This document shows, in pieces, positions 3-26,880 of a stretch of 36,954 nucleotides of DNA. A model generated the notes under the pieces. It worked only from the letters and a program-made list of their open reading frames with translations. It ran no database searches and had not been told where the DNA came from. The translations under genes were made by a program, and so were the position numbers. Position 1 is the first letter of the stretch. Each line of letters begins with the position of its first letter. Source of the DNA: a virus; IMG/VR virus record IMGVR_UViG_3300013286_000028, positions 1-36,954 of that record. One strand, written 5' to 3'.

Positions 3-119
3 ACAAAGGGCGAGGAAGAATATCGCAAAGACCTAATCAAAGCGATCACAGAATGGGCAAAGGAACAAAGCACCGATACCCTGCTCACCTTCGCAACAAA
101 TCAAGGGCTTACAGTATAA
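3..119 (+). CDS. 3' end of an unknown protein (partial)
   Basis: An open frame runs from the left edge to a TAA stop and encodes the last 38 residues of a protein whose start lies outside the window. The tail is charged (it begins TKGEEEYRKDLIKAITEW) and looks helical. I recognise no domain. It is followed after 10 nt by a hairpin and then a rho-independent terminator, so it is the last gene of an upstream plus-strand unit. Confidence 0.6.
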   Translation, partial: TKGEEEYRKDLIKAITEWAKEQSTDTLLTFATNQGLTV

Positions 120-154: not shown

Positions 155-180
155 AACCCCCTTTATGGGGGTTTTTTCTT
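155..180 (+). terminator. Rho-independent terminator
   Basis: AACCCCC (155-161) pairs with GGGGGTT (167-173) around a 5-nt loop and runs into a T-tract (TTTTTTCTTTT). It ends the transcription unit that enters from the left and insulates it from the early promoter at 307. Confidence 0.85.
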
Positions 181-306: not shown

Positions 307-335
307 TTGACATTGTTAGCTTTCTGTGTTATACT
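307..335 (+). promoter_or_regulatory. Strong sigma70-type early promoter
   Basis: A perfect -35 TTGACA (307-312) is separated by 17 bp from -10 TATACT (330-335), predicting a start near 342. It lies just after a terminator and just before the first early gene. Dyad site 1 (374-402) falls in the predicted 5' leader, so a protein bound there could act as a roadblock. The host sigma70 enzyme should recognise it. Confidence 0.85.
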
Positions 336-373
336 GTAAGGGTAAGTCGAGCTATGCAATCACACAAACCACA

Positions 374-402
374 GGACAAAATGACCAAATGTCAGTATGT
401 CT
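374..402. promoter_or_regulatory. Dyad operator-like site 1
   Basis: Copy 1 of a 29-bp repeated dyad: GGACA, 3 nt, TGAC, 5 nt, GTCA, 3 nt, TGTCT. Only the last base departs from the consensus TGTCC. It lies about 32 bp downstream of the predicted transcription start and leaves 17 nt before the ATG at 420, in which the SD AAAGGAG sits. Sites 1 and 3 have identical spacing to their downstream ATG. Confidence 0.8.
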
Positions 403-419
403 TAACAAAGGAGAATCAG

Positions 420-686
420 ATGAGTAAGCATCTCACACAAAGAGCAAGCCACGAATCCCACCGCTATTTCTGTATAGCTAATATCGCCAAAGACTGCCAA
501 GTGTATGTGAACGGCAAAAGGGCATCATTTCTTATCGACAAATCCAAACCCCTAACTTGCCACAAGTGTGGCGACGCAATCGCAAAGAACCGCAAGTTCA
601 CAGTAGCACCCATGAACAAATCAAACTATTACCTAGTTTACAACCCCGATATGCTCAAGCAACTTAACCCAAAGAGGACAACATGA
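420..686 (+). CDS. Unknown 88-aa early protein with a CxxC
   Basis: The frame is open from 354, but the ATG at 420 has an ideal SD (AAAGGAG), and the region before it is occupied by dyad site 1, so I start here. The product has one CHKC motif in its middle (a possible half zinc knuckle, or chance) and basic ends. No family is recognised. It is the first gene of the early unit and overlaps the next gene by an ATGA-type junction. It is probably expressed immediately after infection, but its role is unknown. Confidence 0.7.
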   Translation: MSKHLTQRASHESHRYFCIANIAKDCQVYVNGKRASFLIDKSKPLTCHKCGDAIAKNRKFTVAPMNKSNYYLVYNPDMLKQLNPKRTT

Positions 687-955
687 CCTACTCACACAGA
701 CCACGCAACAAAAGCAGAAAGCTAATTGACGAAGCCAACAAAGGCTCTCTCACGCACCTACTCAAGAACCCCAACCTTACGATAGCAGAAAAGCGGGCAT
801 TGGTAGCCGAGCGCAATCCGTTTATCTATGCTCTTGGAACAAAACTAAAACCTTGGGAACCTTGGACTGAAGAACAGTATGCCGACTACATTGACCGAGT
901 AGATGCAATGCACGAACGATTAGGAATTACAACACCAAAAGGAGAATCAAAATGA
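683..955 (+). CDS. Unknown 90-aa early protein
   Basis: This basic protein has a Trp-rich stretch (KPWEPWTEEQYADYIDR) in its second half and a helical C-terminus ending KGESK. It starts inside the stop of the preceding gene. Its last codons (AAAGGAGAATCAAAATGA) also serve as SD and start of the next gene, so translation is coupled. No known family is recognised. Confidence 0.7.
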   Translation: MTYSHRPRNKSRKLIDEANKGSLTHLLKNPNLTIAEKRALVAERNPFIYALGTKLKPWEPWTEEQYADYIDRVDAMHERLGITTPKGESK

Positions 956-1104
956 TTACAGAAAAAGAAGTAGAAGCAATTGAGGAACTTATCAGATTTG
1001 CTGATGAGTATGGACACTTAGCCCAACAAGAGGCTATTCAAGTGGTAGCCGACTACATTAACGGCTTGTATTCAACAGGCAATGTCAAAGGAGAATCAAA
1101 ATGA
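952..1104 (+). CDS. Unknown 50-aa acidic protein
   Basis: This small gene is framed by the ATGA junctions at 952-955 and 1101-1104. The product is acidic and helical (MITEKEVEAIEELIRF at the N-terminus) and ends in KGESK, the same five residues as its upstream neighbour. That is because the same SD-start module is embedded in both 3' ends. No function can be assigned. The tight coupling and good SD support it as real. Confidence 0.6.
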   Translation: MITEKEVEAIEELIRFADEYGHLAQQEAIQVVADYINGLYSTGNVKGESK

Positions 1105-1253
1105 TTTATGTATTAACAGCATTGGCAATCGTGGTAGCCATCATGACATCATGTATTGCTTGGTTATTGGACAACAGCGGGCTTATACCTGTAATTGGCT
1201 TAACCCTAAGTGCGTTTACTTTCGGCTTCATCATGGGGGAAAACCGTGAATAA
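1101..1253 (+). CDS. Small membrane protein, 50 aa, two TM segments
   Basis: The ATG at 1101 follows AAAGGAG with good spacing. The product has one hydrophobic segment at about residues 3-23 and a second at about 28-45, with a short charged tail (GENRE), so a two-pass inner-membrane protein is likely. Its stop codon directly abuts dyad site 2. Early small membrane proteins in phages often modify the host envelope or exclude other phages, but nothing here shows which. Confidence 0.6.
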   Translation: MIYVLTALAIVVAIMTSCIAWLLDNSGLIPVIGLTLSAFTFGFIMGENRE

Positions 1254-1282
1254 GGACACTATGACAATCGGTCAGGATGTCC
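1254..1282. promoter_or_regulatory. Dyad operator-like site 2 (perfect)
   Basis: A perfect consensus copy: GGACA (1254-1258), TGAC (1262-1265), GTCA (1271-1274), TGTCC (1278-1282). It begins at the base after the TAA of the 50-aa membrane protein gene and runs over the start codon (ATG 1261) and first codons of the next gene, so the site is partly coding. Bound protein or a folded RNA would cover the SD (AAGGA, 1252-1256) and start. Confidence 0.8.
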
Positions 1283-1437
1283 TAGATAGGGGTAAGTGGT
1301 TTGACGATGGACTAACTAAAGCAATGGAGTATGCCGAGAGTGGTAAGAATACGAAGCTGATAAAAGAAGGAATTGCATGCGACGCTTACCTTGATGGGTT
1401 TTTAGATGGTATTGCTTACTTTATAGCGGGGAAATGA
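1261..1437 (+). CDS. Unknown 58-aa protein
   Basis: The frame is open further upstream (GTG at 1246 is an alternative), but the ATG at 1261 has AAGGA five bases before it and avoids overlap with the membrane gene. The product has a degenerate repeat of short helices (LDGFLDGIAYFIAGK at the C-terminus). Its first seven codons lie inside dyad site 2. No family is recognised. Confidence 0.6.
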   Translation: MTIGQDVLDRGKWFDDGLTKAMEYAESGKNTKLIKEGIACDAYLDGFLDGIAYFIAGK

Positions 1438-1628
1438 TGGCAACGCATTACAAAGACGAGAGAATCGCCGACTTGCTAGAAATAATCAATGAGATGGAAC
1501 AAAGGCTTAGGTTATTAATTACCGACACCGACCCATTCTCACATGCACAGTATGAAGAAGTAGCACAGGGCTATACCTCGCTTGCCCTAGCAAAAGCGAA
1601 GTTAATGGCATTACAAGGAGAAGCATGA
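1434..1628 (+). CDS. Unknown 64-aa helical protein
   Basis: It starts within the stop codon of the previous gene (ATG 1434 or 1437). The product is largely helical and charged, with heptad-like hydrophobic spacing (ERIADLLEIINEMEQRL) suggestive of a short coiled coil. It belongs to a chain of four small overlapping genes (1261-2031). Function unknown. Confidence 0.65.
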   Translation: MMATHYKDERIADLLEIINEMEQRLRLLITDTDPFSHAQYEEVAQGYTSLALAKAKLMALQGEA

Positions 1629-1849
1629 TGAGTAGGATGAAGGACTTGCATTACGAACTGTCAGAGTTTATTACCGATGAACGAGATCAAGATACGGTTT
1701 TGGAACTGTTCTGGGAGCTCAAAGACGCACCCCTTAACTCAGAAGGACGAAAGGAATCTGCCCGCAAGATTGTAGACCTACGCAGTATTTATGGGGAAAA
1801 CCTTGACAACGCAATCAATCTGCTACTGGACTACAAGGAAGGTAAATGA
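1625..1849 (+). CDS. Unknown 74-aa acidic protein
   Basis: The gene is ATGA-coupled to both neighbours and preceded by AAGGAG. The product is acidic and helical (ERDQDTVLELFWELKDA in its first half). There are no cysteines or recognisable motifs. It is probably a small host-interaction protein, by position only. Confidence 0.65.
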   Translation: MMSRMKDLHYELSEFITDERDQDTVLELFWELKDAPLNSEGRKESARKIVDLRSIYGENLDNAINLLLDYKEGK

Positions 1850-2031
1850 CTGAGAGCGAACGCAAGATATTAAATAAAGCCATCGCCGAATTACAAACAG
1901 GACTGCTTAACAGCGCACCTAAAGCCTATCTAAGAATCATGGCATGGCAAGCGAAAGAATCTTTAATTGACTTACTAGACGGGAGAAGCAATGACAACTT
2001 GGACACTACAAGATCTAACTCCAACACCTGA
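1846..2031 (+). CDS. Unknown 61-aa protein
   Basis: It starts at an ATGA junction with a good SD (AGGAAGG). The helical part runs to about residue 46. The last 13 residues are Asn/Ser/Thr-rich and are read through the start of the next gene, a 41-nt overlap. The body of the protein looks genuine while the tail may simply reflect the overlap. No family is recognised. Confidence 0.6.
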   Translation: MTESERKILNKAIAELQTGLLNSAPKAYLRIMAWQAKESLIDLLDGRSNDNLDTTRSNSNT

Positions 2032-2383
2032 GGAAGAAGAAGCATGGGCTATGTTAGAGAAAGAGCAAGAGTTTATACAACAGCAAAAGCAAGAAAGGGA
2101 AGACGATATGTATTGGAACAACCGCATTGTTAAAGAAACAATTAAGTATATGCACGAAGGTAAAGAAGCCACCGAGTATTACTACGAAATCAGCGAAGTG
2201 TATTACAACGACAAAGACGAGCCATGTGGGTATTGCCAAGCCACAGTAGGTGGTGAAACCTTTGACGAAATGCGGGAAGTATATAGCCGTATGGCAGAAG
2301 CATTTAAGTTCGACATTCTAGATGCAAGCACCGACTTCAACAACAAATTTACTGAGGATGAAGATGATGGTAAGGAAATCTAA
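1991..2383 (+). CDS. Unknown 130-aa acidic protein
   Basis: The start ATG follows GGGAGAAGCA, giving a good SD, within the 3' end of the previous gene. The protein is strongly acidic, with a Glu/Gln-rich N-terminal helix (EEEEAWAMLEKEQEFIQQQ) and a possible beta-rich centre (EYYYEISEVYYNDKDEP). It ends in an acidic tail. The acidity could mimic DNA, as in some phage anti-host proteins, but that is speculation. No homologue is recognised. Confidence 0.7.
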   Translation: MTTWTLQDLTPTPEEEEAWAMLEKEQEFIQQQKQEREDDMYWNNRIVKETIKYMHEGKEATEYYYEISEVYYNDKDEPCGYCQATVGGETFDEMREVYSRMAEAFKFDILDASTDFNNKFTEDEDDGKEI

Positions 2384-2627
2384 ACCAAAGAAAACTGCGA
2401 AGTGGCAATACTTGGGCGAGACCGACCCCGCCCAGTATATATGGAGCAACAAGACTCACCGCACAGCAAGCGAAGCATTTCGTGATGCTAACTACGCATA
2501 CGCTGGATGGAAACCCAAGTCTGAATGGGATGACTTTATAGAGTTTGTTAGTGGCTTTGTAGTAATGCTTCCGCTAATTGCGTTTGCTTTATATGTTTTG
2601 TATTTGGTAATCATTGCGACAAAATGA
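2364..2627 (+). CDS. Small membrane-anchored protein, 87 aa
   Basis: The frame opens at 2322, but GAGG at 2354-2357 best fits the ATG at 2364 (or 2367). The N-terminus is very basic (MVRKSKPKKTAKWQYLG), the middle is Trp/Tyr-rich and soluble, and the last about 25 residues form one hydrophobic segment (FVVMLPLIAFALYVLYLVII). A cytoplasmic domain tethered by a C-terminal TM helix is likely. Its stop codon is part of dyad site 3. Confidence 0.6.
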   Translation: MMVRKSKPKKTAKWQYLGETDPAQYIWSNKTHRTASEAFRDANYAYAGWKPKSEWDDFIEFVSGFVVMLPLIAFALYVLYLVIIATK

Positions 2628-2645
2628 CACGGTGTCAGGATGTCT
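2617..2645. promoter_or_regulatory. Dyad operator-like site 3
   Basis: The copy is CGACA (2617-2621), TGAC (2625-2628), GTCA (2634-2637), TGTCT (2641-2645). Inner arms are perfect and the outer arms each differ at one base. The changes are not compensatory for RNA pairing (C opposite T), which favours double-stranded DNA recognition. It overlaps the upstream stop codon and leaves 17 nt before ATG 2663, as at site 1. Confidence 0.75.
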
Positions 2646-2662
2646 TATAAAAGGAGAATGAT

Positions 2663-3598
2663 ATGAGTTGGGGAATAGGTAGGTATAACTCGGCAGGCTT
2701 GCCTGCATTAGTAGACTTTGCTAACGCAAAACAGCATTATGAAAACACAGCACCGATTCGTGGAAGAAGTCAGATAGTTAGACCCGCAGGGAAAAACCGA
2801 CGCTTTAGCTGGTATACCATCGAGAAGAACATGAAGTCAGTAGAAGATGGTAGCCCTGTTGGTAAGTGGGCAGAGTCGTATGCTATTAGAGTATACAGCT
2901 CCGATTTAGTAGAGTTCCACGCCAATGGAAACATCACGCTACGCACAAGCAAGTGGCAGTCGCCGACTACTATGTCAGTCTTATACTATTCAACGGCGGC
3001 TTTTGGTTCTGTGTTTAGTGAGAGGGGCAAGTGGTATTTCCAAAACAAGGCAGGCAAATGCTATGTGTTTCGGGGCGAACTTCCATTGCACAACAAAGAT
3101 GGGGTGTATGAACCGATAACCATAACGCAAGAGTATAAACACAAAGCCGACCGCAAGGCATTGAACGCAGTAGCAAAGAGGTATAAGAAATTCGTGGACT
3201 ATGCGACGCAGATGCTTTTGATCGACCCCAATGTCACACGGCTAGAGATGGCTGAGTTTATACATGGGTTAGATTTTAAATCTCCGCAACTTATTCCTAC
3301 TGCATGGCATGGGGATAAGACGACGAGTGCAAACCGAGCGTATCTTATTAGTCATATCGAGAGGTTTAATTCTACGGGCGACTTAGGTTTAGCTTACGAG
3401 CTAGCTTGTTATACGGCAGTTTGTTTTGGTGATTGGCAGTATCGTGCCAACCTGAGCCATTGCACACCCGATAAGTTTAAGCGTGGTTTCAAGGAGTTGT
3501 TGAAGTATAGCTTCAGAGACGAAGTGTTTGTCAAAGAAACACAAGAGGTTGGTGTGCCGTTTCATGATGTAAACAAGAAGTATTTTTATTTTAACTAA
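2663..3598 (+). CDS. Unknown 311-aa protein heading the ATPase module
   Basis: The start follows AAAAGGAG. The protein is basic and aromatic-rich with many Trp/Tyr residues, seems soluble, and shows no Walker, nuclease or HTH motif I can name. A central stretch (about 145-185) is Lys-rich and helical. It is preceded by dyad site 3 and followed directly by site 4 and the AAA+ ATPase gene. This makes it a candidate partner or substrate of the ATPase/VWA module. That link rests on gene order only. Confidence 0.75.
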   Translation: MSWGIGRYNSAGLPALVDFANAKQHYENTAPIRGRSQIVRPAGKNRRFSWYTIEKNMKSVEDGSPVGKWAESYAIRVYSSDLVEFHANGNITLRTSKWQSPTTMSVLYYSTAAFGSVFSERGKWYFQNKAGKCYVFRGELPLHNKDGVYEPITITQEYKHKADRKALNAVAKRYKKFVDYATQMLLIDPNVTRLEMAEFIHGLDFKSPQLIPTAWHGDKTTSANRAYLISHIERFNSTGDLGLAYELACYTAVCFGDWQYRANLSHCTPDKFKRGFKELLKYSFRDEVFVKETQEVGVPFHDVNKKYFYFN

Positions 3599-3627
3599 GG
3601 ACAAACTGACATCTCGTCATAATGTCC
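3599..3627. promoter_or_regulatory. Dyad operator-like site 4 (perfect)
   Basis: A perfect copy: GGACA (3599-3603), TGAC (3607-3610), GTCA (3616-3619), TGTCC (3623-3627). It begins at the base after the TAA of the 311-aa gene and ends 27 nt before the ATPase ATG. It shares spacer triplets (AAC and TAA) with site 6. CATAAT inside it resembles a -10 box, but no -35 is placed to match. Confidence 0.8.
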
Positions 3628-3654
3628 ACAACTAAAACTGTAAAAGGAAATCAA

Positions 3655-4749
3655 ATGTCTGAAGTATTTTTAAACAAAGTAGCAACCCTCAAAGAAGCAG
3701 AAGACCTCATCATATCTCTTGGTGCTAACGGAACAGTTCATCTTATGGGTGAACCAGGAGTAGGCAAAACATCAATGTTCAAGAATATTGTTAAGAGAAC
3801 TAACAAGAAAGGCATTTACATCGACGCACCAAACATCGAACTTGGGGAATTAGGTATTCCAATCCCTGACCACAGCACTAAGACCACACGCATCTATCCA
3901 AACGAGCAATGGGGTTTTCATCTTAACGAACCAAAAGTTATCTTCATCGACGAGTTCACCAAGGCACACACCGCAGTAAAAAATATGTTGCACCCAATGC
4001 TTAATGAACCACGCATGATTATGGGTGTGCCACTACACCCCGAAGATATTGTTGTGACGGCGGGTAATTACACAGGCGACGGTGTTGGCGATAACATGAT
4101 GGCACATAGTCGTAATCGTATTTCGGTGGTGGCAATTAAGAAACCACACGCAGGCTTTAATCCCGACGGCTCTATTGACCCTGATTCATGGGGCGCATGG
4201 GCAGTTGATAGTGAGATTGCACCTGAGGTATTGGCATGGGTAAAGGACACACCGCATTGTCTAGCATCATATCTTGACCCAGCACAGAACGGCAACAAGT
4301 ATATCTTCAACCCTAAAGAAGCGCAGAAGTCTTTTGTTAGCCCTCGTTCCCTTGCTAGAGCATCCAGTATTCTTAAGGCTCGTGCCGGTGTAACGACAAA
4401 TGCTACTGTATGTGCATTGGAAGGCACTATCGGCGCACCCGCAGCGCGTGACTTGATGGCTTTCGTTGAAGTCGCCGACTCGCTACCAACTTGGGAAGAG
4501 ATTTGCAAATCACCGACAACTGCTCAAGTTCCGAACTCACCCGCAGCTTTATGCTTACTTGCTTTCTCAGCGGTGCAAAAGGTAGATCGTGAAACCATCA
4601 GTAAGTTCTTTGAATATCTCAAGCGGACACCGAAAGAATTGCAATCTGTATTCTGCTTGACTGGTATGAAGAACGACGACAAGAAGAAACTATTCTTGAC
4701 AAGCCAATCGTTTGTTGATTGGATGCGCACTAATCAATACTTATTCTAA
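3655..4749 (+). CDS. MoxR-type AAA+ ATPase
   Basis: ATG 3655 follows AAAGGAAATCAA. The in-frame ATG at 3622 lies inside dyad site 4 and is rejected, giving 364 residues. Walker A is GEPGVGKTS (about 32-40), Walker B is VIFIDEF (near 95-101), and SRNRI follows the sensor strand. This is the MoxR/CobS-like branch of AAA+ proteins, known to pair with VWA-domain proteins (RavA-ViaA, NorQ-NorD, CobS-CobT) to remodel or metallate target proteins. The VWA partner lies two small genes downstream at 5059, which fits such a complex. The target in the infected cell is unknown. It could act as a chaperone in replication or virion assembly. Confidence 0.9.
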   Translation: MSEVFLNKVATLKEAEDLIISLGANGTVHLMGEPGVGKTSMFKNIVKRTNKKGIYIDAPNIELGELGIPIPDHSTKTTRIYPNEQWGFHLNEPKVIFIDEFTKAHTAVKNMLHPMLNEPRMIMGVPLHPEDIVVTAGNYTGDGVGDNMMAHSRNRISVVAIKKPHAGFNPDGSIDPDSWGAWAVDSEIAPEVLAWVKDTPHCLASYLDPAQNGNKYIFNPKEAQKSFVSPRSLARASSILKARAGVTTNATVCALEGTIGAPAARDLMAFVEVADSLPTWEEICKSPTTAQVPNSPAALCLLAFSAVQKVDRETISKFFEYLKRTPKELQSVFCLTGMKNDDKKKLFLTSQSFVDWMRTNQYLF

Positions 4750-4758
4750 GGAAAAAAC

Positions 4759-4860
4759 ATGATAGAGATTATCTTTGCGTTTTTTATACTAAGCGGTGTA
4801 TGTGCGTGGGGTTTTATTGCATACATTTTTATTAACTTGTTTTGGGGAGATGGATCATGA
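4759..4860 (+). CDS. Tiny single-pass membrane protein, 33 aa
   Basis: ATG 4759 is preceded by AAGGAAAAA. Nearly the whole product is hydrophobic (residues 4-29, FAFFILSGVCAWGFIAYIF), followed by a short GDGS tail. It lies in the ATPase-VWA interval and overlaps the next gene by ATGA. It might tether the complex to the membrane or be an independent small membrane protein. Support is the SD, the coupling and the coherent TM segment. Confidence 0.5.
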   Translation: MIEIIFAFFILSGVCAWGFIAYIFINLFWGDGS

Positions 4861-5066
4861 AAGAAGTAATGGTAGAAGTGTTGGCACGAAGCCGCCGTAA
4901 TAAAACAGAAGCAAAAGCAATTAGCTTAGAGTTACTTCAGCTTGCAGTATCAATCGGTATGCCACAAGACGAAGCACTCAAGACTAATCTTCCCGCATTT
5001 TTTGATGGGTATTTAATGGCAATGGGACACATGCCAGCTTATAGAAAGGAAAATCTTAATGGCTAA
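4857..5066 (+). CDS. Unknown 69-aa protein between ATPase and VWA genes
   Basis: The open frame begins at 4842, but ATG 4857 overlaps the preceding stop (ATGA) and follows GGGGAGATGG, so I start there. The product has a basic N-terminus (SRRNKTEAKA) and helical remainder. No motif is recognised. It overlaps the VWA gene by 8 nt, so translation is likely coupled and the protein may belong to the module. Confidence 0.6.
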   Translation: MKEVMVEVLARSRRNKTEAKAISLELLQLAVSIGMPQDEALKTNLPAFFDGYLMAMGHMPAYRKENLNG

Positions 5067-6246
5067 GATGACAGCAGAACAGAGAATAGAGAGGACTCAT
5101 GTGCAGTTGATGAAGCACAAGAACTTCTGTTTGTTCTCAGGTTTATTCATGGTAGGTAAAGTCAGCGTTGATGACGACTTAGAAACTGCTTGCACCAATG
5201 GTGTGGATGTGAGATACGGCAGACAGTTCGTTGACAAACTCACCGACAAGCAATTAGCTTTCTTAATCTTGCATGAAACTATGCACAAGGCTTATCGTCA
5301 TTTGGTTGTATGGGAATCGCTACACAAGAAGAACGCACAGATTGCCAACGCAGCGTGTGACTATGTGATTAACCTACAAATCCAAGACTATGACCCATAC
5401 CATGAAGTGACTGAGATGCCTGTTGATGAGAACGGCGAAGTCATGGGTTTGATTGACGAGAAGTATCGTGGCATGGACTCAGCCCAAGTATTCAAATTAA
5501 TATATGAAGAAAACGGCGGGGGTGGTAGCGGTGGTAAAGGTTTCGATGAGCATGATTGGAATGGTGCGAAGGAAGCTACTGCTGAAGAAAAGGAAAAGGT
5601 TGCCAAGGAAATCGAGTCAGCGTTACGGCAAGGTGCTATCCTCGCAGGCAAGATGGGCGGTAATGTTTCTAGAGAACTGCAAGACTTACTTACCCCGAAG
5701 GTTGATTGGAAGGAAGCATTGCGTGATTTTGTTAAGACCACAACGCAAGGCAAAGACCAAACAACATGGAAGCGACTGCACAAACGCTATATCGGTATGG
5801 ATATTATTATGCCGAGTAGCTATGACGAGAAGGTCGGCTCTATCGTGGTAGGTGTAGATACATCAGGCTCTATTGGCGGAGAAGAACTCGCACAATTCTT
5901 GGGTGAGGTGAAGTCTATATGCGACGAGGTTAGTCCTGAGAAGATTGATCTACTCTATTGGGATACTAGAGTAGCAGGACATGAAACATACCTAGGTTCG
6001 GAGTTAGCTAATCTCGTTGAATCAACTCAAGCCAAAGGTGGTGGGGGGACTGACCCCGACTGTGTGCCAGCTTATATGAAGAAAGAAGATCTAAAGCCCG
6101 AGTGTGTAATCATGTTGACCGACGGCTATCTTGGTTCTGATAAAGATAAGTGGGGTTCAGTCACCATGCCTGTCATGTGGTGCATCAAAGGTAACAGCCG
6201 ATTCAATGCCGACTCCGTTGTAGGCAAGATAGTTCATGTTGAGTAG
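5059..6246 (+). CDS. Metallopeptidase-like/VWA protein (DUF2201 type)
   Basis: This 395-aa protein has an N-terminal zincin-like helix, HETMH at 72-76 with His81 nearby (HExxH form). A Gly-rich linker (NGGGGSGGKG, about 152-162) follows. The C-terminal VWA-like domain has the MIDAS motif DTSGS starting at Asp267. This order matches the DUF2201 putative metallopeptidase/VWA family, which occurs beside MoxR ATPases. In the family the VWA part binds partners through a metal. Whether the HExxH part cleaves anything is unproven. With the ATPase at 3655 it should form a two-component remodelling complex. Start ATG 5059 follows AAGGAAAATCTTA. Confidence 0.85.
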   Translation: MAKMTAEQRIERTHVQLMKHKNFCLFSGLFMVGKVSVDDDLETACTNGVDVRYGRQFVDKLTDKQLAFLILHETMHKAYRHLVVWESLHKKNAQIANAACDYVINLQIQDYDPYHEVTEMPVDENGEVMGLIDEKYRGMDSAQVFKLIYEENGGGGSGGKGFDEHDWNGAKEATAEEKEKVAKEIESALRQGAILAGKMGGNVSRELQDLLTPKVDWKEALRDFVKTTTQGKDQTTWKRLHKRYIGMDIIMPSSYDEKVGSIVVGVDTSGSIGGEELAQFLGEVKSICDEVSPEKIDLLYWDTRVAGHETYLGSELANLVESTQAKGGGGTDPDCVPAYMKKEDLKPECVIMLTDGYLGSDKDKWGSVTMPVMWCIKGNSRFNADSVVGKIVHVE

Positions 6247-6256
6247 TTAAACCAAA

Positions 6257-6285
6257 GGACATTCTGACATTGTGTCAGGGTGTCC
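6257..6285. promoter_or_regulatory. Dyad operator-like site 5 (perfect)
   Basis: A perfect copy: GGACA (6257-6261), TGAC (6265-6268), GTCA (6274-6277), TGTCC (6281-6285). It starts 10 bp after the VWA gene stop and ends 15 nt before ATG 6301. Here alone the spacers also pair if G-U is allowed, so the RNA could form an uninterrupted 12-bp stem. The other copies cannot. Confidence 0.8.
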
Positions 6286-6300
6286 ACGAAAGGAAATCAA

Positions 6301-7200
6301 ATGCAAGACAATAGTATATCAATCGCATCATCAGCCATGTTAGTGGAGTTATCTATCAGCACATGGACTGCTAGGAAACTAGATAAGAAGGTATCAACTC
6401 AGGTTGACTTAGATCAAAACGCTAAGACTAGGGCTGGTAATTACAACAAGAATCTATTAGCAGGCACAGGGTTTTTAGATACCATCACCAAGTATGCAGC
6501 CAATGCTAGAGCATGGCATCTTTCCCAAACCCTACCTTGGTCTGACAATGGGCTACGCTTACTGCCTATGTCTAACTTCATGGACTATAAAAAGCAGTTG
6601 CATACGCTTGAGACTAACTACCAAAACCTAGTCGATAAGTTTGTAGTGTCCTATCCGAACCTAGTTAATGCCGCAGCTTTTCAGTTAGGTAATTTGTTTG
6701 ACCGAAGCGAGTATCCCGAAGCCGACACCATTGCAAGGAAGTTTAAGTTTAGTGTGAACTATTTGCCTGTCCCGATGGCAGGGGATTTTAGAGTAGACAT
6801 CAACGAAGAAGCAAAAGCTGAGATTATTGCAAGTTGCGAAGGTCTATATACAGATCGTCTTAACAACGCAATGAAAGATGCGTGGACTCGGTTGCATGAG
6901 TGCCTTACTCGTATGAGTGATCGGTTGGCGGTAGATCTAGTTGATGCTGATGAAGACGAAGATCGTGGCAAGATGATTAAGCCTCGTGTGTTCAGAGATA
7001 GCCTACTAGAAAATGCTGTGGAGTTAGTAAATCTCCTGAAACATTTTAACCTCACAGGCGACCCATCTATGGAGCAAGCCCGAAAGGAATTAGCTATCGC
7101 AGTTATGAACCACGATGCCACCGAACTACGAGAAGACATGCTCGCAAGGGAAGCGGTTAAGAACAAGGTTGATGCAATACTCGGCAAGTTTTCATTTTAA
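6301..7200 (+). CDS. Possible DUF3150-like protein of the ATPase/VWA module
   Basis: The frame is open from a GTG at 6280 inside dyad site 5, but ATG 6301 has the same leader as the ATPase gene (AAAGGAAATCAAATG), giving 299 residues. The product is mostly helical with an N-terminal ISTWTARKLDKK segment that reminds me of DUF3150 proteins. Those are phage and bacterial proteins of unknown function found beside CobS-like ATPases and VWA proteins. The family call is tentative, as I cannot run a profile search. Position and shared leader make it a likely third member of the module. Confidence 0.65.
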   Translation: MQDNSISIASSAMLVELSISTWTARKLDKKVSTQVDLDQNAKTRAGNYNKNLLAGTGFLDTITKYAANARAWHLSQTLPWSDNGLRLLPMSNFMDYKKQLHTLETNYQNLVDKFVVSYPNLVNAAAFQLGNLFDRSEYPEADTIARKFKFSVNYLPVPMAGDFRVDINEEAKAEIIASCEGLYTDRLNNAMKDAWTRLHECLTRMSDRLAVDLVDADEDEDRGKMIKPRVFRDSLLENAVELVNLLKHFNLTGDPSMEQARKELAIAVMNHDATELREDMLAREAVKNKVDAILGKFSF

Positions 7201-7209
7201 GGGGGTAGT

Positions 7210-7359
7210 ATGGAAGATTTGCCTAGTGATATAAGAGAGTTGGTGTTGTTTAAGATACAAGATGTTATGCACCGACTAAACGAAATTGAAGAAATGCTAT
7301 GTTGCGATGAAGATTTAGTTCATCCGTCTTTTGACCCCGTATTTAAAAATGAAACCTGA
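7210..7359 (+). CDS. Unknown 49-aa acidic protein
   Basis: ATG 7210 follows GGGGGTAGT ten bases after the preceding stop. The product is helical and acidic (FKIQDVMHRLNEIEEML) with a CC pair in the middle. It reads like a short coiled-coil protein. No family is recognised. The strong G-rich SD and placement in a gap-free operon support it. Confidence 0.55.
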   Translation: MEDLPSDIRELVLFKIQDVMHRLNEIEEMLCCDEDLVHPSFDPVFKNET

Positions 7360-7368
7360 GGAGAAAGT

Positions 7369-7560
7369 ATGAAAATCGTTGTTTACTTTGAGAATGGTAG
7401 AGCTTCTAATGTGGAAGCGCAGTTTGCTAGTGAGGAGTTATACATGGCTTGCTTGCCTGCGCTAGAAGATTTTGCTGGTAAAGATGGTTACATAGTAACC
7501 GAGTCGTGCCGTGAAGACGAGTATGTTAATGACTATACAGATGATGAGGAAATTGCATGA
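7369..7560 (+). CDS. Unknown 63-aa acidic protein
   Basis: A strong SD (GAGGAGA) precedes ATG 7369. The N-terminus looks like a beta strand (MKIVVYFENG) and the C-terminus is very acidic (NDYTDDEEIA). Function unknown. It is ATGA-coupled to the following 290-aa gene. Confidence 0.65.
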   Translation: MKIVVYFENGRASNVEAQFASEELYMACLPALEDFAGKDGYIVTESCREDEYVNDYTDDEEIA

Positions 7561-8429
7561 TACTAATAGATAAGTCAGCAGTTAATTTAAAACTAAGAGA
7601 AGCACCTTACTTTGAGGGGTTGGAGAAGTTTGCCCACCTCGTAAAGCTCGCTAAACCTTTACTTGATTTTAAAGTAGACGATGAATGTGTATCTCAGATG
7701 TGGTATCGAACCGACGAAGAGAAACAAACTAAGCCGACCCACTTCATCAAAAGGCTAAAGGTCTATCAAGATGGAGAGTTCTTAGGCAACATCATGACCG
7801 ACCGCAGATACCATCGTGGGGATAACGAGTTAGTTTATATGGTCGAGAGTTTTCGTATTCATAAAGAAAGGGGTAACTCTAACGGGACCTACTCTAAAGA
7901 CATCAAGGTAGCGATGCGCCATGCCAAGAAAGTATTTCACTCTAGGGAAGATGACGAACTCAAGGACTTGATTGGTAATAATGTTAAAACTTTTGTTAGA
8001 AACGGATTCTCCTCTGTCAAAAGCCAAGTGCGTTGGATATGTAGCTCAGAAGACGAGATTGTATTCTATGCAATGCTAGGGCATGATGCTTACTTAAGGG
8101 GGGAAGATACAGTTAAGCTACCAGCAATTCCACAATCAGCACACGACAGAGATAACTGGATAAAACATTGTGAACTTCTTAAAAGTGCTGGTGCTTTGGA
8201 GATGGCGCACTCTGCTAAGAAAGGCTACGCTATCAAGGCTAACGAAGATAACAGTTTGGTTTGCTACGACTTAGAAGCCGACGCTGTTGTTAAATACAAA
8301 TCGTTTGATGACTTGCCTGAGAATATAGCTACTAAGTTTGCTATGTTCAAAGTGCTAAACCCTAACGAACCTATTGCACAGTTCGGTTGCAAATATGAAG
8401 GTGGCTATTTCTTTATACCAAGCATCTGA
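7557..8429 (+). CDS. Unknown 290-aa protein, last gene of the early unit
   Basis: It starts at an ATGA junction. The protein is soluble, mixed alpha/beta and Lys/Asp-rich, with no motif I recognise. The C-terminus has a Gly/Tyr/Phe cluster (YEGGYFFIPSI). It is the last coding gene before the UUCG terminator at 8558, so its mRNA 3' end is probably formed there. No function is assigned. Confidence 0.7.
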   Translation: MILIDKSAVNLKLREAPYFEGLEKFAHLVKLAKPLLDFKVDDECVSQMWYRTDEEKQTKPTHFIKRLKVYQDGEFLGNIMTDRRYHRGDNELVYMVESFRIHKERGNSNGTYSKDIKVAMRHAKKVFHSREDDELKDLIGNNVKTFVRNGFSSVKSQVRWICSSEDEIVFYAMLGHDAYLRGEDTVKLPAIPQSAHDRDNWIKHCELLKSAGALEMAHSAKKGYAIKANEDNSLVCYDLEADAVVKYKSFDDLPENIATKFAMFKVLNPNEPIAQFGCKYEGGYFFIPSI

Positions 8430-8431
8430 TG

Positions 8432-8580
8432 TATAATCGGGGGGAGGTTGCCTCATTGGTAATTTCCTTTCACATGGTTGGCTTAACTCATCTGGTATAT
8501 GTGGCTTAAGTTGATGTAACCTACAAATGCACTAGGGCATAATCTACCTTACCTACGACCCCGCTTCGGCGGGGTTTTTC
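8432..8580 (+). ncRNA. Possible small RNA or structured 3' UTR
   Basis: No gene fits between 8430 and 8557. A perfect -10 hexamer TATAAT (8432-8437) sits just after the stop codon, but the -35 is poor. Transcription from about 8444 would end at the terminator at 8580, giving an RNA of about 137 nt. An internal stem can form between a GGCTTAA segment near 8483 and TTAAGTT near 8506. It does not fit a tRNA (no T-arm consensus). It may equally be only the operon's 3' UTR. Confidence 0.3.
8558..8580 (+). terminator. Strong rho-independent terminator with UUCG loop
   Basis: ACCCCGC and GCGGGGT pair perfectly around a TTCG loop closed by C-G, the very stable cUUCGg tetraloop, followed by TTTTTC. 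It separates the early unit from the replication unit. Confidence 0.92.
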
Positions 8581-8599
8581 TTTGCCCTTTTTTAATACA

Positions 8600-8628
8600 G
8601 GACAAACTGACATTTAGTCATAATGTCC
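8600..8628. promoter_or_regulatory. Dyad operator-like site 6 (perfect)
   Basis: A perfect copy: GGACA (8600-8604), TGAC (8608-8611), GTCA (8617-8620), TGTCC (8624-8628). It lies in true intergenic DNA, 20 bp after the terminator and 26 bp upstream of the -35 of the replication promoter. This is an activator-like position, unlike the leader positions of sites 1 and 3-5. Confidence 0.8.
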
Positions 8629-8654
8629 TAAGGGTTTACACTTATAAATAATTC

Positions 8655-8683
8655 TTGCACTTGGTTAAACTTATTGGTATACT
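8655..8683 (+). promoter_or_regulatory. Promoter of the replication region
   Basis: -35 TTGCAC (8655-8660), 17-bp spacer and -10 TATACT (8678-8683) predict a start near 8690, just before the SD (AAGGAAA) of the VRR-NUC gene. The -10 is identical to that of the early promoter at 330. With site 6 just upstream, an activator or repressor could control entry into replication gene expression. Confidence 0.75.
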
Positions 8684-8713
8684 CTGTCAATACTATAAGG
8701 AAACCGAAACCAA

Positions 8714-9019
8714 ATGGCAACACCTGAGTCTAAGGTAAAAGCTTCTGTCGTCAAGATATTAAAGAAGCACAGCGTCTACTACTTTTTCCCCGCTACTGGC
8801 GGCTTTGGTCGCTCAGGAGTTCCCGACATTATAGCTTGCTTTCGTGGTCAGTTCGTTGCTATCGAGTGCAAGGCTGGGGATAACAAGCCGACTGCGTTAC
8901 AACAAAGAGAATTAAAAAACATTATGACTGCGGGCGGTCATGCGTTTGTTGCGAACGAAGAAAACATTTCTTTCTTTGAATCTTACTTCAACCCACTCGA
9001 CGATGACGGTCGATGCTGA
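8714..9019 (+). CDS. VRR-NUC domain nuclease
   Basis: This 101-aa protein carries the complete PD-(D/E)XK core of VRR-NUC enzymes: Glu5, GVPDII with Asp38, and AIECKAG with Glu51 and Lys53, followed by a Gln-containing helix (about 60-66). Stand-alone phage VRR-NUC proteins are structure-specific nucleases, related to the FAN1 nuclease domain and Holliday-junction resolvase folds. They probably resolve branched replication intermediates. It is the first gene of the replication unit, with SD AAGGAAA. Confidence 0.9.
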   Translation: MATPESKVKASVVKILKKHSVYYFFPATGGFGRSGVPDIIACFRGQFVAIECKAGDNKPTALQQRELKNIMTAGGHAFVANEENISFFESYFNPLDDDGRC

Positions 9020-9050
9020 CCAGTTCCCTCACTCTAGGATAAATAAAAAC

Positions 9051-9467
9051 ATGAATGATGGCGTAAAAATTTTACTTGAACGGATGGAAACCCACCCTGA
9101 GGAGTTTGTTATAGAAGAAGGAATCCCTGCTAAATGGGACAATTTAATTCGGTCATACGAAGCAATACTAGACCCCGAAGACATAACACTATTTAAACAA
9201 GCTAGAGCTAAGCTACTGCAACAACAATTTACCGAGAAAGTATTGGAGGAACTCGTTGACCCAAAAAAGTCGAGTTTGGAGGACATAATCAATCGGTATC
9301 GGGTGAAAGGTATGCCTTCGGTTGGTCAGATCCCCGCACTATCTTCGGTAACCCTTGAACATACCGAACACCTAAGAGCCCATGTAGATGCGTTAAAGCG
9401 TGAAGTTGACAGTCAAAAATCAAAAAAAGTTAAAACTATATTCGGAAAGCTATTTAACTACACATGA
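9051..9467 (+). CDS. Unknown 138-aa protein preceding DNA polymerase
   Basis: The frame is open from 8940, with possible starts at ATG 9003 (inside the nuclease gene, no SD) and ATG 9051 (AGGA 11 nt upstream). I prefer 9051. The product is helical and charged, with a predicted long C-terminal helix (EHLRAHVDALKREVDSQK) and basic tail. It is ATGA-coupled to the polymerase gene, suggesting a replication accessory role, though nothing in the sequence proves this. Confidence 0.65.
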   Translation: MNDGVKILLERMETHPEEFVIEEGIPAKWDNLIRSYEAILDPEDITLFKQARAKLLQQQFTEKVLEELVDPKKSSLEDIINRYRVKGMPSVGQIPALSSVTLEHTEHLRAHVDALKREVDSQKSKKVKTIFGKLFNYT

Positions 9468-11263
9468 ACATAATAACTCTAGACTTTGAAACCTATTACA
9501 GTAGGGAGTTTAGTCTTACTAAAGTAACGACAGAGGAATATGTCCGTTCGGATATGTTTGAAGTCATAGGTGTAGCCATCAAGGAGAACGACAATGATGC
9601 AGTTTGGTTTAGTGGATCGTATGAGCAAATCCTTGAATTCCTTAATAGATACGATTGGGCTAACTCTTTTGCTCTTGCCCATAATGCTATGTTTGATTCC
9701 GCTATCCTTACTTGGGGGTTTAATATTAAACCGATGGCTTGGTTGGACACACTTAGCATGGCTCGTTCGACAGATGGTTTGGAAGCTGGAAACTCCCTTG
9801 CTAAACTTGTGGAGCGATACAATCTTGGCGCAAAAGGGGCAGAAGTCCTTGATGCACTGGGTAAGAGAAGGGCAGATTTTTCTCCTGTCGAACTTAATGC
9901 GTATGGTAAATATTGCATTAACGACGTGGAACTAACCTACAAACTATTCTTTATTCTTGCCGACCGCTTCTCAAAATCGGAACTACAACTCATTAGCCTC
10001 ACGATCAAGATGTTTTCTGAGCCTGTGCTTCAACTTAATACACCGCTACTTGAGCAACACCTTATGCAAGTGCGGACCCGTAAAGAAAAATTACTTGATG
10101 CTTGCGTATCAGATAAAGATACATTGATGTCAAACCCAAAGTTGGCGGAACTCCTTATATCCCTTGGGGTTGAACCGCCTATGAAGATAAGCCCTGCTAA
10201 TGGAAAGGAAACGTATGCTTTTGCTAAGAACGACGAAGGGTTTAAAGCACTCATGGAATACCCTGACGAAAGGGTTCAAGCCATCGTCGCCGCACGACTT
10301 GGAACTAAAAGCACACTTGAAGAAACTAGAACAGAGAGATTTATCCAAATATCCTTACGGGGTAAAATGCCAGTCCCTCTTCGTTATTATGCTGCTCATA
10401 CTGGTCGCTGGGGAGGCGATGACAAACTCAATCTACAAAACTTACCTCGTAAATCTCTTCTCAAAGATTCTATCGTTGCCCCTAAAGGACATGTTTTAAT
10501 TGATGCCGACTCTTCACAGATTGAGGCACGGACAGTTGCATGGCTATCGGGTCAGACGGATTTAATTGAAGCGTTTGAAAGGAAAGAAGATGTCTACAAA
10601 ATCATGGCTTCGGCTATCTATAACAAGGCTGAGAAAGAAATTGACTCGGGAGAAAGGTTCGTGGGCAAGACAACGATTCTCGGTGCGGGGTATGGCATGG
10701 GTAGTAAGAAATTTGCATTACAACTCAAAACTTTTGGGGTGGAAATTGAGGATGAGGAAGCGGCTAGGATCATATCAGTTTATAGAGCCACTTATCCCCG
10801 TATCCCTCAACTATGGAAAGAAGCTAATAGCGCCCTTGACGCACTCAGCCAAAAGAAAACTGCGCCTGTCGGGCGTCAACCACAAGCACTTAGTCTTACG
10901 GAATCAGGTTTTTTATTACCTAGTGGACTTTACTTAAACTATCGTGACTTACAAAAAGATAGTGATGAGCAGTATAGCTACGCAAGCAGACGTGGTCGTA
11001 TTAAGATTTATGGTGGGAAGATAGTAGAGAACCTTTGCCAAGCACTTGCTCGGTGCATTATTGGTGAGCAGATGTTGCGTATGGCTAGAAAATATAAAGT
11101 TGCTTTGACTGTGCATGATGCGGTTATGGTTGTAGTAAAAGAAGAGGAGCAAGAAGAGGCGGTAGCGTATGTAGAGGAGTGCATGAAGTGGCGGCCGTCC
11201 TGGGCATTAACATTACCCCTTGCTTGTGAACTAGGTGTTGGTAAATCTTATGGAGAATGTTGA
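9464..11263 (+). CDS. Family A DNA polymerase with 3'-5' exonuclease
   Basis: The 599-aa enzyme has an N-terminal DEDD proofreading exonuclease: LDFET (Asp7, Glu9), HNAMFD near residue 70, and YGKYCINDVE near 150. The C-terminal PolA palm has motif A (DADSSQIEAR, about 349-358), a motif B-like helix (GKTTILGAGYGMG, about 402-414) and motif C (VHDAV, about 549-553). There is no 5'-3' exonuclease domain, as usual for phage PolA. Motif C has Ala where cellular Pol I has Glu (HDE), a variation seen in phage polymerases. This is the replicative polymerase, working with the primase-helicase at 17716. Confidence 0.95.
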   Translation: MNIITLDFETYYSREFSLTKVTTEEYVRSDMFEVIGVAIKENDNDAVWFSGSYEQILEFLNRYDWANSFALAHNAMFDSAILTWGFNIKPMAWLDTLSMARSTDGLEAGNSLAKLVERYNLGAKGAEVLDALGKRRADFSPVELNAYGKYCINDVELTYKLFFILADRFSKSELQLISLTIKMFSEPVLQLNTPLLEQHLMQVRTRKEKLLDACVSDKDTLMSNPKLAELLISLGVEPPMKISPANGKETYAFAKNDEGFKALMEYPDERVQAIVAARLGTKSTLEETRTERFIQISLRGKMPVPLRYYAAHTGRWGGDDKLNLQNLPRKSLLKDSIVAPKGHVLIDADSSQIEARTVAWLSGQTDLIEAFERKEDVYKIMASAIYNKAEKEIDSGERFVGKTTILGAGYGMGSKKFALQLKTFGVEIEDEEAARIISVYRATYPRIPQLWKEANSALDALSQKKTAPVGRQPQALSLTESGFLLPSGLYLNYRDLQKDSDEQYSYASRRGRIKIYGGKIVENLCQALARCIIGEQMLRMARKYKVALTVHDAVMVVVKEEEQEEAVAYVEECMKWRPSWALTLPLACELGVGKSYGEC

Positions 11264-11427
11264 TGATTGAAAAATTAGTTGATCCGCAGTCGCTAGATAA
11301 CGATGTTGCGGTTATGAAAATAATGCAGTTGATGGGGCAACTAACCCCTAACGATATTGAGTATGTTTTAAAAACAACCAAGCAAGTCTATGACGCTATT
11401 GCTCTTGGAAATACGTATGACCAATAA
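11263..11427 (+). CDS. Unknown 54-aa protein
   Basis: ATG 11263 overlaps the polymerase stop codon (TGATG) and follows GGAGAATGT. The product is mostly helical (MKIMQLMGQLTPNDIEYVL). It overlaps the next gene by 11 nt. Its reading frame and coupling support it as a real small gene. No function is recognised. Confidence 0.55.
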   Translation: MIEKLVDPQSLDNDVAVMKIMQLMGQLTPNDIEYVLKTTKQVYDAIALGNTYDQ

Positions 11428-11710
11428 ATTAGTAGAAGAAGCACCATACCATCCGGGCTATGAAGATGCTGGGTTTGAGCCTAAAAAACTACAAGACCTG
11501 ACAGATGAGGAAATACGGCATTTACAAGCTCAATGCCACCTTAAAAATGTTGGATACGATACTTTTATTATGCGGTTTGCTAGAGCAATACTAAAGAAAG
11601 CGAGTGAGAAGTCTATGAAAGCACAAGAAATAAAGCCAGCAAAGTATTCAGATGAGTGGTGGAAAGAAGTAGCAGAGTTTAATAAACAGTTAAGGGAGCA
11701 AGAGAAATGA
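11417..11710 (+). CDS. Unknown 97-aa protein
   Basis: The frame extends upstream to 11390, but ATG 11417 minimises overlap with the 54-aa gene. The protein has a Pro/Tyr-rich N-terminus (EEAPYHPGYEDAGFEPKKL) and helical, Lys/Glu-rich remainder ending in a likely short coiled coil. No motif is recognised. It lies in the replication operon, ATGA-coupled downstream. Confidence 0.65.
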   Translation: MTNKLVEEAPYHPGYEDAGFEPKKLQDLTDEEIRHLQAQCHLKNVGYDTFIMRFARAILKKASEKSMKAQEIKPAKYSDEWWKEVAEFNKQLREQEK

Positions 11711-11946
11711 TAACAAAATTAAAACAGACAAAGAAAACAACAGTTGAAGAAGCCCAGCTAATTAGCGTAAAAATTATTAAGGAAAACAAAGATGGTTCAG
11801 CCGATGCTCAGATTAAGTTTAATAAGCAAGGACTTGAAACACTCGTACAGTGGGGGATGGTTAGTATGCTTGCCGCCGCAGTTGATGCGTATGCCCCTAA
11901 AGCCGAGAAAAGTAGCAAGCCCACTACAAAAAGGGCTAAAAAATGA
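11707..11946 (+). CDS. Unknown 79-aa protein, related to its neighbour
   Basis: Residues about 30-65 (QIKFNKQGLETLV, then a hydrophobic helix) resemble the same part of the next gene product (IIGYTKQGAERLV). Both begin with a predicted strand leading into a KQGxExLV helix, which suggests a tandem duplication. The C-terminus is a basic, Ser/Thr/Lys tail (SSKPTTKRAKK), plausibly nucleic-acid-binding. Function unknown. Confidence 0.65.
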   Translation: MITKLKQTKKTTVEEAQLISVKIIKENKDGSADAQIKFNKQGLETLVQWGMVSMLAAAVDAYAPKAEKSSKPTTKRAKK

Positions 11947-20748: not shown

Positions 20749-20774
20749 ACCCCAGCCTAGTGCTGGGGTTTTTT
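20749..20774 (+). terminator. Rho-independent terminator at the convergence point
   Basis: ACCCCAGC and GCTGGGGT form an 8-bp stem with a CTAGT loop, followed by TTTTTT. It ends the plus-strand arm. The T-tract overlaps the TAA (TTA on this strand) of the converging polyvalent-protein gene. On the minus strand the stem is followed by TCAAG, not a T-run, so it should not terminate efficiently in that direction. Confidence 0.88.
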
Positions 20775-26700: not shown

Positions 26701-26880
26701 TAGACCTTTAAACGGATTAGAGGTTTTTGTTTCTTGCTCTACTGCTTTGTCTTGAGCCCAAAAAGGCTCGCCTTCAACCGATTTCTTAGCCTCTACTGGT
26801 TTGTCGGCTTCCCAAAACGGTTTTTCTTCTTTAGGCTTTCTAACATCAATTGCAGCATCTTGCTCCCAGAAGTTTGCCAT
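20773..26880 (-). CDS. Giant polyvalent virion protein with PLxRFG-like and HExxH motifs
   Basis: This 2035-aa protein is the longest here. The N-terminus has three FWxxD repeats exactly 18 residues apart (FW at 4, 22 and 40). A disordered, Thr/Glu/Pro-rich zone follows (about 350-700). A zincin-like motif HEVTHAASYW lies near 881 and PIKRFGDYW near 1247, which matches the PLxRFG domain of phage polyvalent proteins. The C-terminal half is helical with hydrophobic segments (GMMAFTFASAGITGLPLFFV). Polyvalent proteins are packaged and injected with DNA, delivering protease or other effectors. It is the last late gene, with SD AAAGG inside the upstream gene's end. Confidence 0.75.
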   Translation of the reverse strand: MANFWEQDAAIDVRKPKEEKPFWEADKPVEAKKSVEGEPFWAQDKAVEQETKTSNPFKGLLARASSLAGEGVEAVARVAENLGDKLETAVPLSQSLGLITQKEIDEEQQLKPMFEWANALRQYGKDIGYAPSTQLGEIPGKPLLLVPFIAERVIASAPDMAAAVVNAPAYIMLRTNEILNDRLTNDKKSLEDATIADVTAAVGAAVIETTLERFATKGLLKTKLGAEASTGARRIGKETAIQSGTEAVEEGVGYLGGTAGTQKGVDAAELAQNMLEGAIVGGGLGAGVQGGKEYVTKKERSKLEEILEPDLEAKLGRKPTDVELGGFVDTFLHERKRAADEEAKTEKKVKDERTIDTGINTRTTEPSVPLSEQQKAGKPATGTTTSTPGSLGGDTGLANKPGVGKEPQPTALTDDQIAAKAAEFQAKRQALLTPTGRIPLANSKKGKEYQALVAEEEAFVKSAMEAKQAAPTETGVTSEITPVEVENQNVISLEKVAREKFIAGAAKESFDAQLYTLNKLYNEGFATDEDYQKFEEAIKDAPDQLMAIARGTKILSAVKQRAQSATEQRLSTEAANTETNAATAKEGEVEVAEETSDKPDAPTIQAKINTAPTETAPVEQTEAVTEVNPVVQEFDALNSQRQMALDQGDTVGARELMQQMSAMRKDLPEDHPLHITPEGKKRVVLTKSQRKEAKKAAQEPKAASVDSPRVDEVPKHDKMFKSAHPTVLDAIKNNDLQSALKALKNTGGQFLSNFADRLLQLNLDTKIGFDLQYGLVDKYLKTTEQQRIRVLMFLEIFHPEVYNDHFNQKKMHTPVIQMSESFYKLKSGKFNIDMRGFEQDLKDITETFSKGLNALAAPGMFYDRTASFNTATGPTTNHTFVHEVTHAASYWAISNEHLLNATQKKALANLKELFNYAKANTKDQGQYGFTDLHEFVSEALSNPRFQKDLRAMKYAMDSNQSAWSKFIQFVYGLVGGDNVLFHTMANADVLFSANADVNSNINHPVLAPDKYNVSKNGNFKVNTSERFSLGSLFKALTSGKLSWGDINKKNLSKFLDTTNQQYRRYLLGGLTLDQLTDMVGTELPQFQKYVREVDAMINTRNQILSEGETAIRDWSRLQETNQPKAEQLAKMMLEATLNKMDPDILEPQLKTVSKSGLTGSLKEYHDNSALRKAWQDMISGPDGDKALSIYREVRSFYERRAKEYVNIQLDRLKEREEAKGTDKAEIQKKLQDERNELTKEMIQPYFPIKRFGDYWMQVGKGKKKIFMQFEDAWSRDLALEEKRQELINVDKLTEEETDNMLDSGQGFSEGFGQRLADVEHLKKLKDRVDAESDNILASTDPAVKADEVNSLRDALKDGFDQYYLETLPAQSIQKMFLHRKNVAGASIDMLRAFAVSRQRVAYQRARFQHMPALFREIEAARTFLKTVPFAERNRLRDYVNELELNLKNAILEPPKQSGLTTGLTQFGFLHFLTSPASAIINALAIPGIYIPNAAAKYGTANTTKALAKYNRLLGGTGWRNDQNGRVEFLSLSRAGLENVNFTGTEDNQVALPTGKSLADVYNEGVRRGVIDTTLTHEAASIGEQPSNEYTGRWQKFMYYASLPFHSAEKYNRETAFMSSFELAYNKYMMPVSEGGKGFTAEKAYDAAIQDARDLTQKTMFNYNTINKPRYFRGDLRNIVLQFKMYPQHMTILMYRTLHQAIGIGQDLELKKFEESLKTAPTADRDAAIAQKKADLKLEKNEAIKAFTGMMAFTFASAGITGLPLFFVFQGVASAFHAAFGDDDEPFDSENWFKNWCNRTFGGFAGDIMSRGIASKVTGINFADRMGINLTDMWFPDVRKSQDEVQYMQNLMTNLMGPTIGAGFNYVKAIKDYRDGYSERAIESVMPAAIKNVMVGTRYLTEGKATTMKGATLDENVTPAEALAQMLGFSPEDTAQKQKASFEMKNANEEIIARHNDLLNAFFIAVDGHDTVMMAKVLEKIQRFNKTNPGVAINGEAIANSVKRKYQDRALANITGGMPINKKLLGQLNSMRDYSL

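Follow-up and report, generated by a model that had tools for sequence, protein, structure and literature searches.

A multi-copy 29-bp dyad in the early region of an uncultured phage, conserved in its relatives and covarying with p200, a candidate operator-binding protein

The closest known functional analogue of the system described here is the set of stoperators of cluster A mycobacteriophages such as L5, Bxb1 and TipsytheTRex. These are asymmetric 13-bp sites, oriented with transcription and spread genome-wide, and their repressor (gp71 in L5) is a monomer with a helix-turn-helix domain that blocks transcription elongation. The phages are temperate and carry an integrase or ParAB. Lineages differ in site consensus, in correlation with the distance between their repressors (PMC6550527), and the repressor places two DNA-binding domains on one site (PMC9283540). 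Here we analyse a stretch of 36,954 nt (positions 1 to 36,954 of IMG/VR virus record IMGVR_UViG_3300013286_000028, referred to as the window), which carries six copies of a 29-bp dyad in its early region, together with p200, a phage protein of about 200 residues that probably binds them. The system resembles the stoperators in having many copies per genome (six in the window and up to 11 in relatives), most of them not at promoters. It is nevertheless not a member of that family: its sites, dyads of 29-31 bp, are symmetric and bipartite and occur in the early block only, and no Pfam, PHROG or PDB relative of p200 was found.

The operators of ribbon-helix-helix proteins such as MetJ and Arc are built of subsites repeated 8 bp apart, with higher-order binding on a palindrome. 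The dyads share the subsites repeated 8 bp apart, but a regulator of this type needs an N-terminal β-strand, and both p200 models contain helices only. In cluster K mycobacteriophages (the TM4 group), start-associated sequences reportedly repeat near the starts of early genes, some copies having an inverted repeat, and are said to include the ribosome-binding site and to be oriented. Unlike these, the dyads also lie within genes and between a terminator and a promoter. An earlier note on this DNA knew of no described phage operator of such layout; none was found in the literature searched, the coverage of which was partial.

The dyad reads GGACA-N3-TGAC-N5-GTCA-N3-TGTCC. Copies had been placed at 374, 1254, 2617, 3599, 6257 and 8600, and all six positions are confirmed. 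As had also been claimed, four copies are perfect, matching 18 of 18 specified bases, while the mismatches of the remaining pair are confined to outermost bases. No strand is assigned to them.

374-402: dyad 1, base 29 differs; starts 39 bp past the -10 of the promoter at 307-335
1254-1282: dyad 2, perfect; overlaps the start of a small open reading frame (ORF)
2617-2645: dyad 3, mismatches at bases 1 and 29; p2663 starts 18 bp downstream
3599-3627: dyad 4, perfect; between p2663 and the AAA ATPase gene
6257-6285: dyad 5, perfect; between the VWA and DUF3150 genes
8600-8628: dyad 6, perfect; between the operon 1 terminator and the replication-operon promoter

All six dyads have a 16-base core, GACA-N3-TGAC-N5-GTCA-N3-TGTC, without a mismatch, against a chance expectation from base composition of 7e-6 perfect cores. 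The shuffling control suggested in the earlier note gave no perfect core in 300 Markov-1 shuffles, and a mean of 0.007 cores at two or fewer mismatches. Confinement to the early region also held up: the window has no further site with five or fewer mismatches, the other 28 kb are without a comparable site, and the next-best sites have six mismatches and include 8-bp-shifted echoes of real dyads. The spacers had been described as varying freely, and the loops and internal loops are indeed unconserved, but among 199 sites positions 6 and 24 favour A/T, and about 70% have C at position 8 and G at position 22. It had likewise been stated that all copies lie at gene borders or just upstream of a promoter. 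Only the copy at 8600 is upstream of a promoter; 374 lies downstream of one, and 2617 shares 11 bp with the end of the ORF at 2322-2627, just as 1254 overlaps an ORF start. In relatives the borders are conserved, but in 37 loci the VWA gene itself contains a dyad, 39-45% of the way along.

Scanned for the exact pattern, IMG/VR yielded 74 stretches, many of them multi-copy. The same dyad is present in dozens of uncultured phage contigs, and hundreds of related contigs have sites at matching places. Nearly all matches with gene context carry the early module of the window, with 37-96% protein identity in the polymerase. At two or fewer mismatches the core occurs 1-11 times per record in 49 records, while the reversed pattern, used as a control, has no occurrence in the same 49. 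A motif-independent sample was obtained by picking relatives by their DUF3150 and ATPase proteins, and the two protein-picked samples, of about 1 Mb each, hold 196 and 262 sites at two or fewer mismatches versus 0 for the controls. The dyads are kept at orthologous borders, so that the proposal survives comparison with related phages: a dyad is present within 200 bp upstream of the VRR-NUC gene in 54 of 60 relatives, of the ATPase gene in 56 of 74, and of the DUF3150 gene in 40 of 66, and it is found there in none of 63 for p7557. In six long contigs, three of them of 65-70 kb, every dyad lies within one early block, and the dyad block makes up 8-10 kb of uncultured phage contigs of about 50-70 kb.

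Such clustering of many copies in one block might be expected of structural or replication sites, that is, a partition centromere, an origin, or condensation or packaging signals. This is very unlikely. No ParA/CbiA-type ATPase (PF01656), as would accompany a ParB-parS system, was matched in 14 long contigs, which are possibly incomplete; the sites occupy fixed gene borders and the p200 leader, yet never the upstream region of p7557; and their placement, adjoining promoters, is regulatory.

In one relative (L035, 8689-8782) two dyads stand about 65 bp apart, each directly after a near-identical terminator-like hairpin, which suggests local duplication of a terminator-dyad unit. A scan of a genome collection gave only seven stretches with eight sites. 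Five of these sites, in four of the stretches, come from a single Butyrivibrio metagenome-assembled genome, where the 29-bp pattern is held within longer palindromes of about 50 bp that resemble repetitive extragenic palindromes (L082 1876-1952, L081 848, L083 5767 and L084 7049). The pattern there is probably a coincidence, and the Butyrivibrio and other genome-collection matches were set aside as such.

The arms seen in the window are absent from about half of the protein-picked relatives. In these, a palindrome search recovers dyads with other arms but unchanged layout and borders, and operator types were assigned with this palindrome finder. The inner arms include TGTC, TTAC, TAAC, CTAG, CCGY, CGGA, TTAG, CGAC and CGAA, and the outer arms GGACA, GAACA, TAACA, CACA and ACTT, among others. 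The centre gap is 5 in 62 genomes, 6 in 13 and 7 in one. About 25 different half-site sequences are found across relatives, and the sites of one genome share one version; for example, contig L206 (p200 at 2978-3658) has the operator type CCACATTCAGAC, and L252 (p200 at 3541-4299) has GGACAATCCTAG. Lineages have rewritten all their operator copies together, while positions and layout stayed.

As in cluster A, regulator and site consensus change together. p200 distance follows operator distance with a partial Mantel correlation of 0.53 given ATPase distance (n=45, p=0.002, the permutation floor). The corresponding values for VWA, DUF3150, p7557, VRR-NUC, polymerase and p2663 range from -0.22 to 0.06, and that of a terminase gene is 0.13; operator sequence does not correlate with such genes as the ATPase and the polymerase. 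On their partial Mantel values, p2663, p7557, the zinc-ribbon protein and the ATPase, VWA and DUF3150 proteins were rejected or downgraded as the binder. Antisense ORF families with high Mantel values were present at only 15-19 loci, on the strand opposite to conserved genes, and were treated as spurious.

The covariation is divided between two parts of p200. The inner arm covaries with helix 4, residues 62-81 (raw correlation 0.64, and 0.62 given the rest of p200), which do not follow the outer arm. The outer arm goes with helix 5 plus the C-terminal part; residues 92-121 follow it with raw correlations of 0.43-0.47 (0.31-0.34 once the rest of p200 is accounted for) but do not follow the inner arm, and the region up to residue 166 also leans toward the outer arm. 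The same split is seen when the analysis is limited to single-copy genomes or to one genome for each operator type. Because inner-arm and outer-arm distances are nearly uncorrelated (0.11), shared ancestry alone explains this split poorly, though it may do so. Another protein could in principle bind the dyads, with p200 co-evolving by linkage only: a partial correlation of 0.30 is seen for the terminase-adjacent gene, and the gene survey covered only ORFs of at least 45 residues. Linkage does not, however, predict that two parts of p200 should separately track two arms so nearly uncorrelated, nor that the signal should persist after conditioning on the rest of the protein, and we consider another binder very improbable. 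The split also weakens the earlier idea of a tetramer or two dimers on each dyad, because the separate arms are tracked by different parts of one protein, and a dimer suffices if it reads a bipartite half-site.

One or two genes for p200 lie at the outer end of the array. Most of them start with a dyad nearby or overlapping, and a promoter is often found 30-42 bp before this leader dyad, in a geometry like that of window positions 307-402. The window itself holds only the 3' end of the gene. Its translated tail has 50% identity over 36 residues to the p200 C-terminus of a close relative (blastp, E 1.2e-4, small database), the relative being L265 3860-4480 (this gene is also L093 9513-10133). 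Pfam and PHROG gave no significant match to p200, tblastn gave none in isolated phages, and Foldseek searches, twice against the PDB and once against BFVD, all gave E > 0.1. A profile match to MIC60 (E 0.0037) lay in the long helical part and was disregarded. AlphaFold2 predicts helices and no β-strand, with a mean predicted local distance difference test score of 90, and 86 for an N-terminal fragment. Calls of p200 absence made with the p200 profile A1 are weak, because the sampled contigs that have the module but no match to this profile include L206, which encodes a divergent p200.

The other features of the early region of the window are as follows.

3-119, plus strand: p200 gene, C-terminal 38 codons (5'-truncated by the window edge); candidate operator-binding protein
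155-173, plus strand: terminator-like hairpin after p200, from a scan, consensus match only
307-335, plus strand: sigma-70-like promoter of early operon 1, TTGACA-17-TATACT, 11/12, from a scan
2663-3598, plus strand: p2663, conserved early gene of unknown function
3655-4749, plus strand: AAA/MoxR-like ATPase (PF07728, phrog_1297)
5059-6246, plus strand: DUF2201 metallopeptidase-like plus VWA protein (PF13203, PF09967)
6301-7200, plus strand: DUF3150-like protein (PF11348, weak match)
8557-8576, plus strand: intrinsic terminator closing early operon 1, from a scan
8655-8683, plus strand: extended -10 promoter-like site before VRR-NUC, TTGCAC-17-TATACT, read by eye and below the scan threshold
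8714-9019, plus strand: VRR-NUC/Hjc-like nuclease (phrog_93, PF01870), the first gene past dyad 6

The sites mark early operon 1, which runs from its strong promoter through the dyad at 374, small genes, p2663, the AAA ATPase, DUF2201/VWA, the DUF3150-like protein and p7557 to the terminator. After the dyad at 8600 come the promoter-like site, which is conserved in relatives L003 and L005, and then the VRR-NUC and polymerase genes. It is worth adding that the PHROG 1314 label 'HNH endonuclease' on the VWA protein misfits that protein's Pfam domains. Elsewhere, in a leftward gene block, the window has a 2035-residue ORF on the minus strand (20773-26880), conserved at 26-35% in relatives over most of the matched length.

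Dyads placed in leaders and intercistronic regions might act as RNA hairpins, serving as a translational operator or in antitermination or processing. In keeping with this, sites are often 16-28 bp before a start codon, the arms differ on both sides between clades, and dyads just before VRR-NUC run into a T-tract in 21 of 41 cases, versus 26 of 347 elsewhere. Across 196 distinct sites, however, the outer positions 1/29 and 5/25 vary without compensation, and A-C mispairs (71) are more frequent than G-U (52) when 309 sites are read in the direction of transcription, so that neither the compensatory pairs nor the sense-strand G-U tolerance of an RNA hairpin is seen. The lack of conservation in loops and internal loops, the position of dyad 6 between a terminator and the next promoter, and the intragenic VWA sites also speak against RNA. 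The RNA hairpin was rejected on the uncompensated outer positions and on the lack of G-U bias in the mispairs, and we give it hardly any weight. The T-tract after about half of the terminal dyads does imply that the dyad may also serve as an operon terminator. That the dyads are sequence-specific DNA operators is well supported by these comparisons of sequence and by the conservation at orthologous borders, and in this respect, apart from its tetramer or two dimers, the operator reading of the earlier note stands.

We consider it likely that these operators are those of the phage-encoded p200, and that a p200 dimer shuts off or roadblocks the early block while its specificity diversifies. One dimer would bind each dyad, with one bipartite half-site per monomer; helix 4 would read the inner arm (TGAC in the window), and helix 5 plus the C-terminal part would read the outer arm (GACA). 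Sites 30-42 bp past the -10 of early promoters, in leaders, and between or within genes of one co-directional operon would act as roadblocks or repressor sites, and accumulating p200 would shut the early block down and autoregulate its own gene. It is the leader, intergenic and intragenic placement that favours roadblocking or repression with autoregulation of p200. p200 might instead bind the dyads and activate transcription, or time the change from early to middle genes, since dyad 6 immediately precedes the promoter of the replication operon, both in the window and in most relatives. This is unlikely: most sites are downstream of promoters or deep in operons and genes, where activators do not act, and p200 genes bear a site in their own leader.

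Several observations weigh against control of the early block by p200 through the dyads. Dyad 6, upstream of its promoter, has no obvious roadblock target there, and with the T-tracts after the dyads just before VRR-NUC it may also act as a terminator. The searches described above place p200 in no known DNA-binding family or fold. Partial correlations are seen for the terminase-adjacent gene (given above) and, at 0.19, for the zinc-ribbon gene; both are consistent with linkage, and either gene may contribute. Within the window clade p2663 reaches 0.32. Finally, Mantel permutations remove shared ancestry incompletely and are not a full phylogenetic correction.

The nearest isolates by terminase (46-58%) are the pelagiphages HTVC023P and HTVC027P, phages 023Pt_psg01 and DSL-LC04, and Planktothrix phage Pag-Yong1. 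Scans covering 40-50 kb of each of these five genomes found no p200, and every core match had at least four mismatches. The module of AAA/MoxR-like ATPase, DUF2201-VWA and DUF3150 proteins (window 3655-7200) is also present in Pag-Yong1.

Two contigs in which p200 was undetected have palindrome arrays of their own. L194, of 67 kb, has eleven copies of TTTCGTAC-N-GTACGAAA in the same early region, with centres from 4230 to 11880, and at 3473-4063 it encodes a 196-residue protein with a basic C-terminal stretch, a possible regulator. L186 has five copies of TTAGGTA-S-TACCTAA near start codons, with centres from 1777 to 7984, and a 200-residue lysine-rich protein (1873-2475) is encoded just after the first copy. 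Such arrays in distant relatives suggest that this block came under dense operator control before any single regulator arose.

Lysogeny is unsupported, because neither an integrase (PF00589) nor the ParA-type ATPase was matched in the 14 possibly incomplete contigs. An early-expressed repressor would silence a co-infecting phage with the same operators, and this may be why specificity diversifies and all the sites of a genome switch together. It is possible, though we put it forward tentatively, that p200 represents a new DNA-binding class with two separately evolvable reading parts, which drives immunity-like incompatibility in apparently non-integrating phages, and that its 6-11 operators and the protein switch together at fixed positions. 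If the operator assignment is true, these dyads represent a widespread and undescribed early-gene control system in uncultured environmental phages, and p200 an orphan DNA-binding family whose half-site code could be read from the roughly 25 natural variants. Two questions could then be put to the test: by what route 6-11 scattered sites and their protein can acquire a new specificity jointly while avoiding a broken intermediate, and whether immunity-like incompatibility exists in phages that seem to be virulent.

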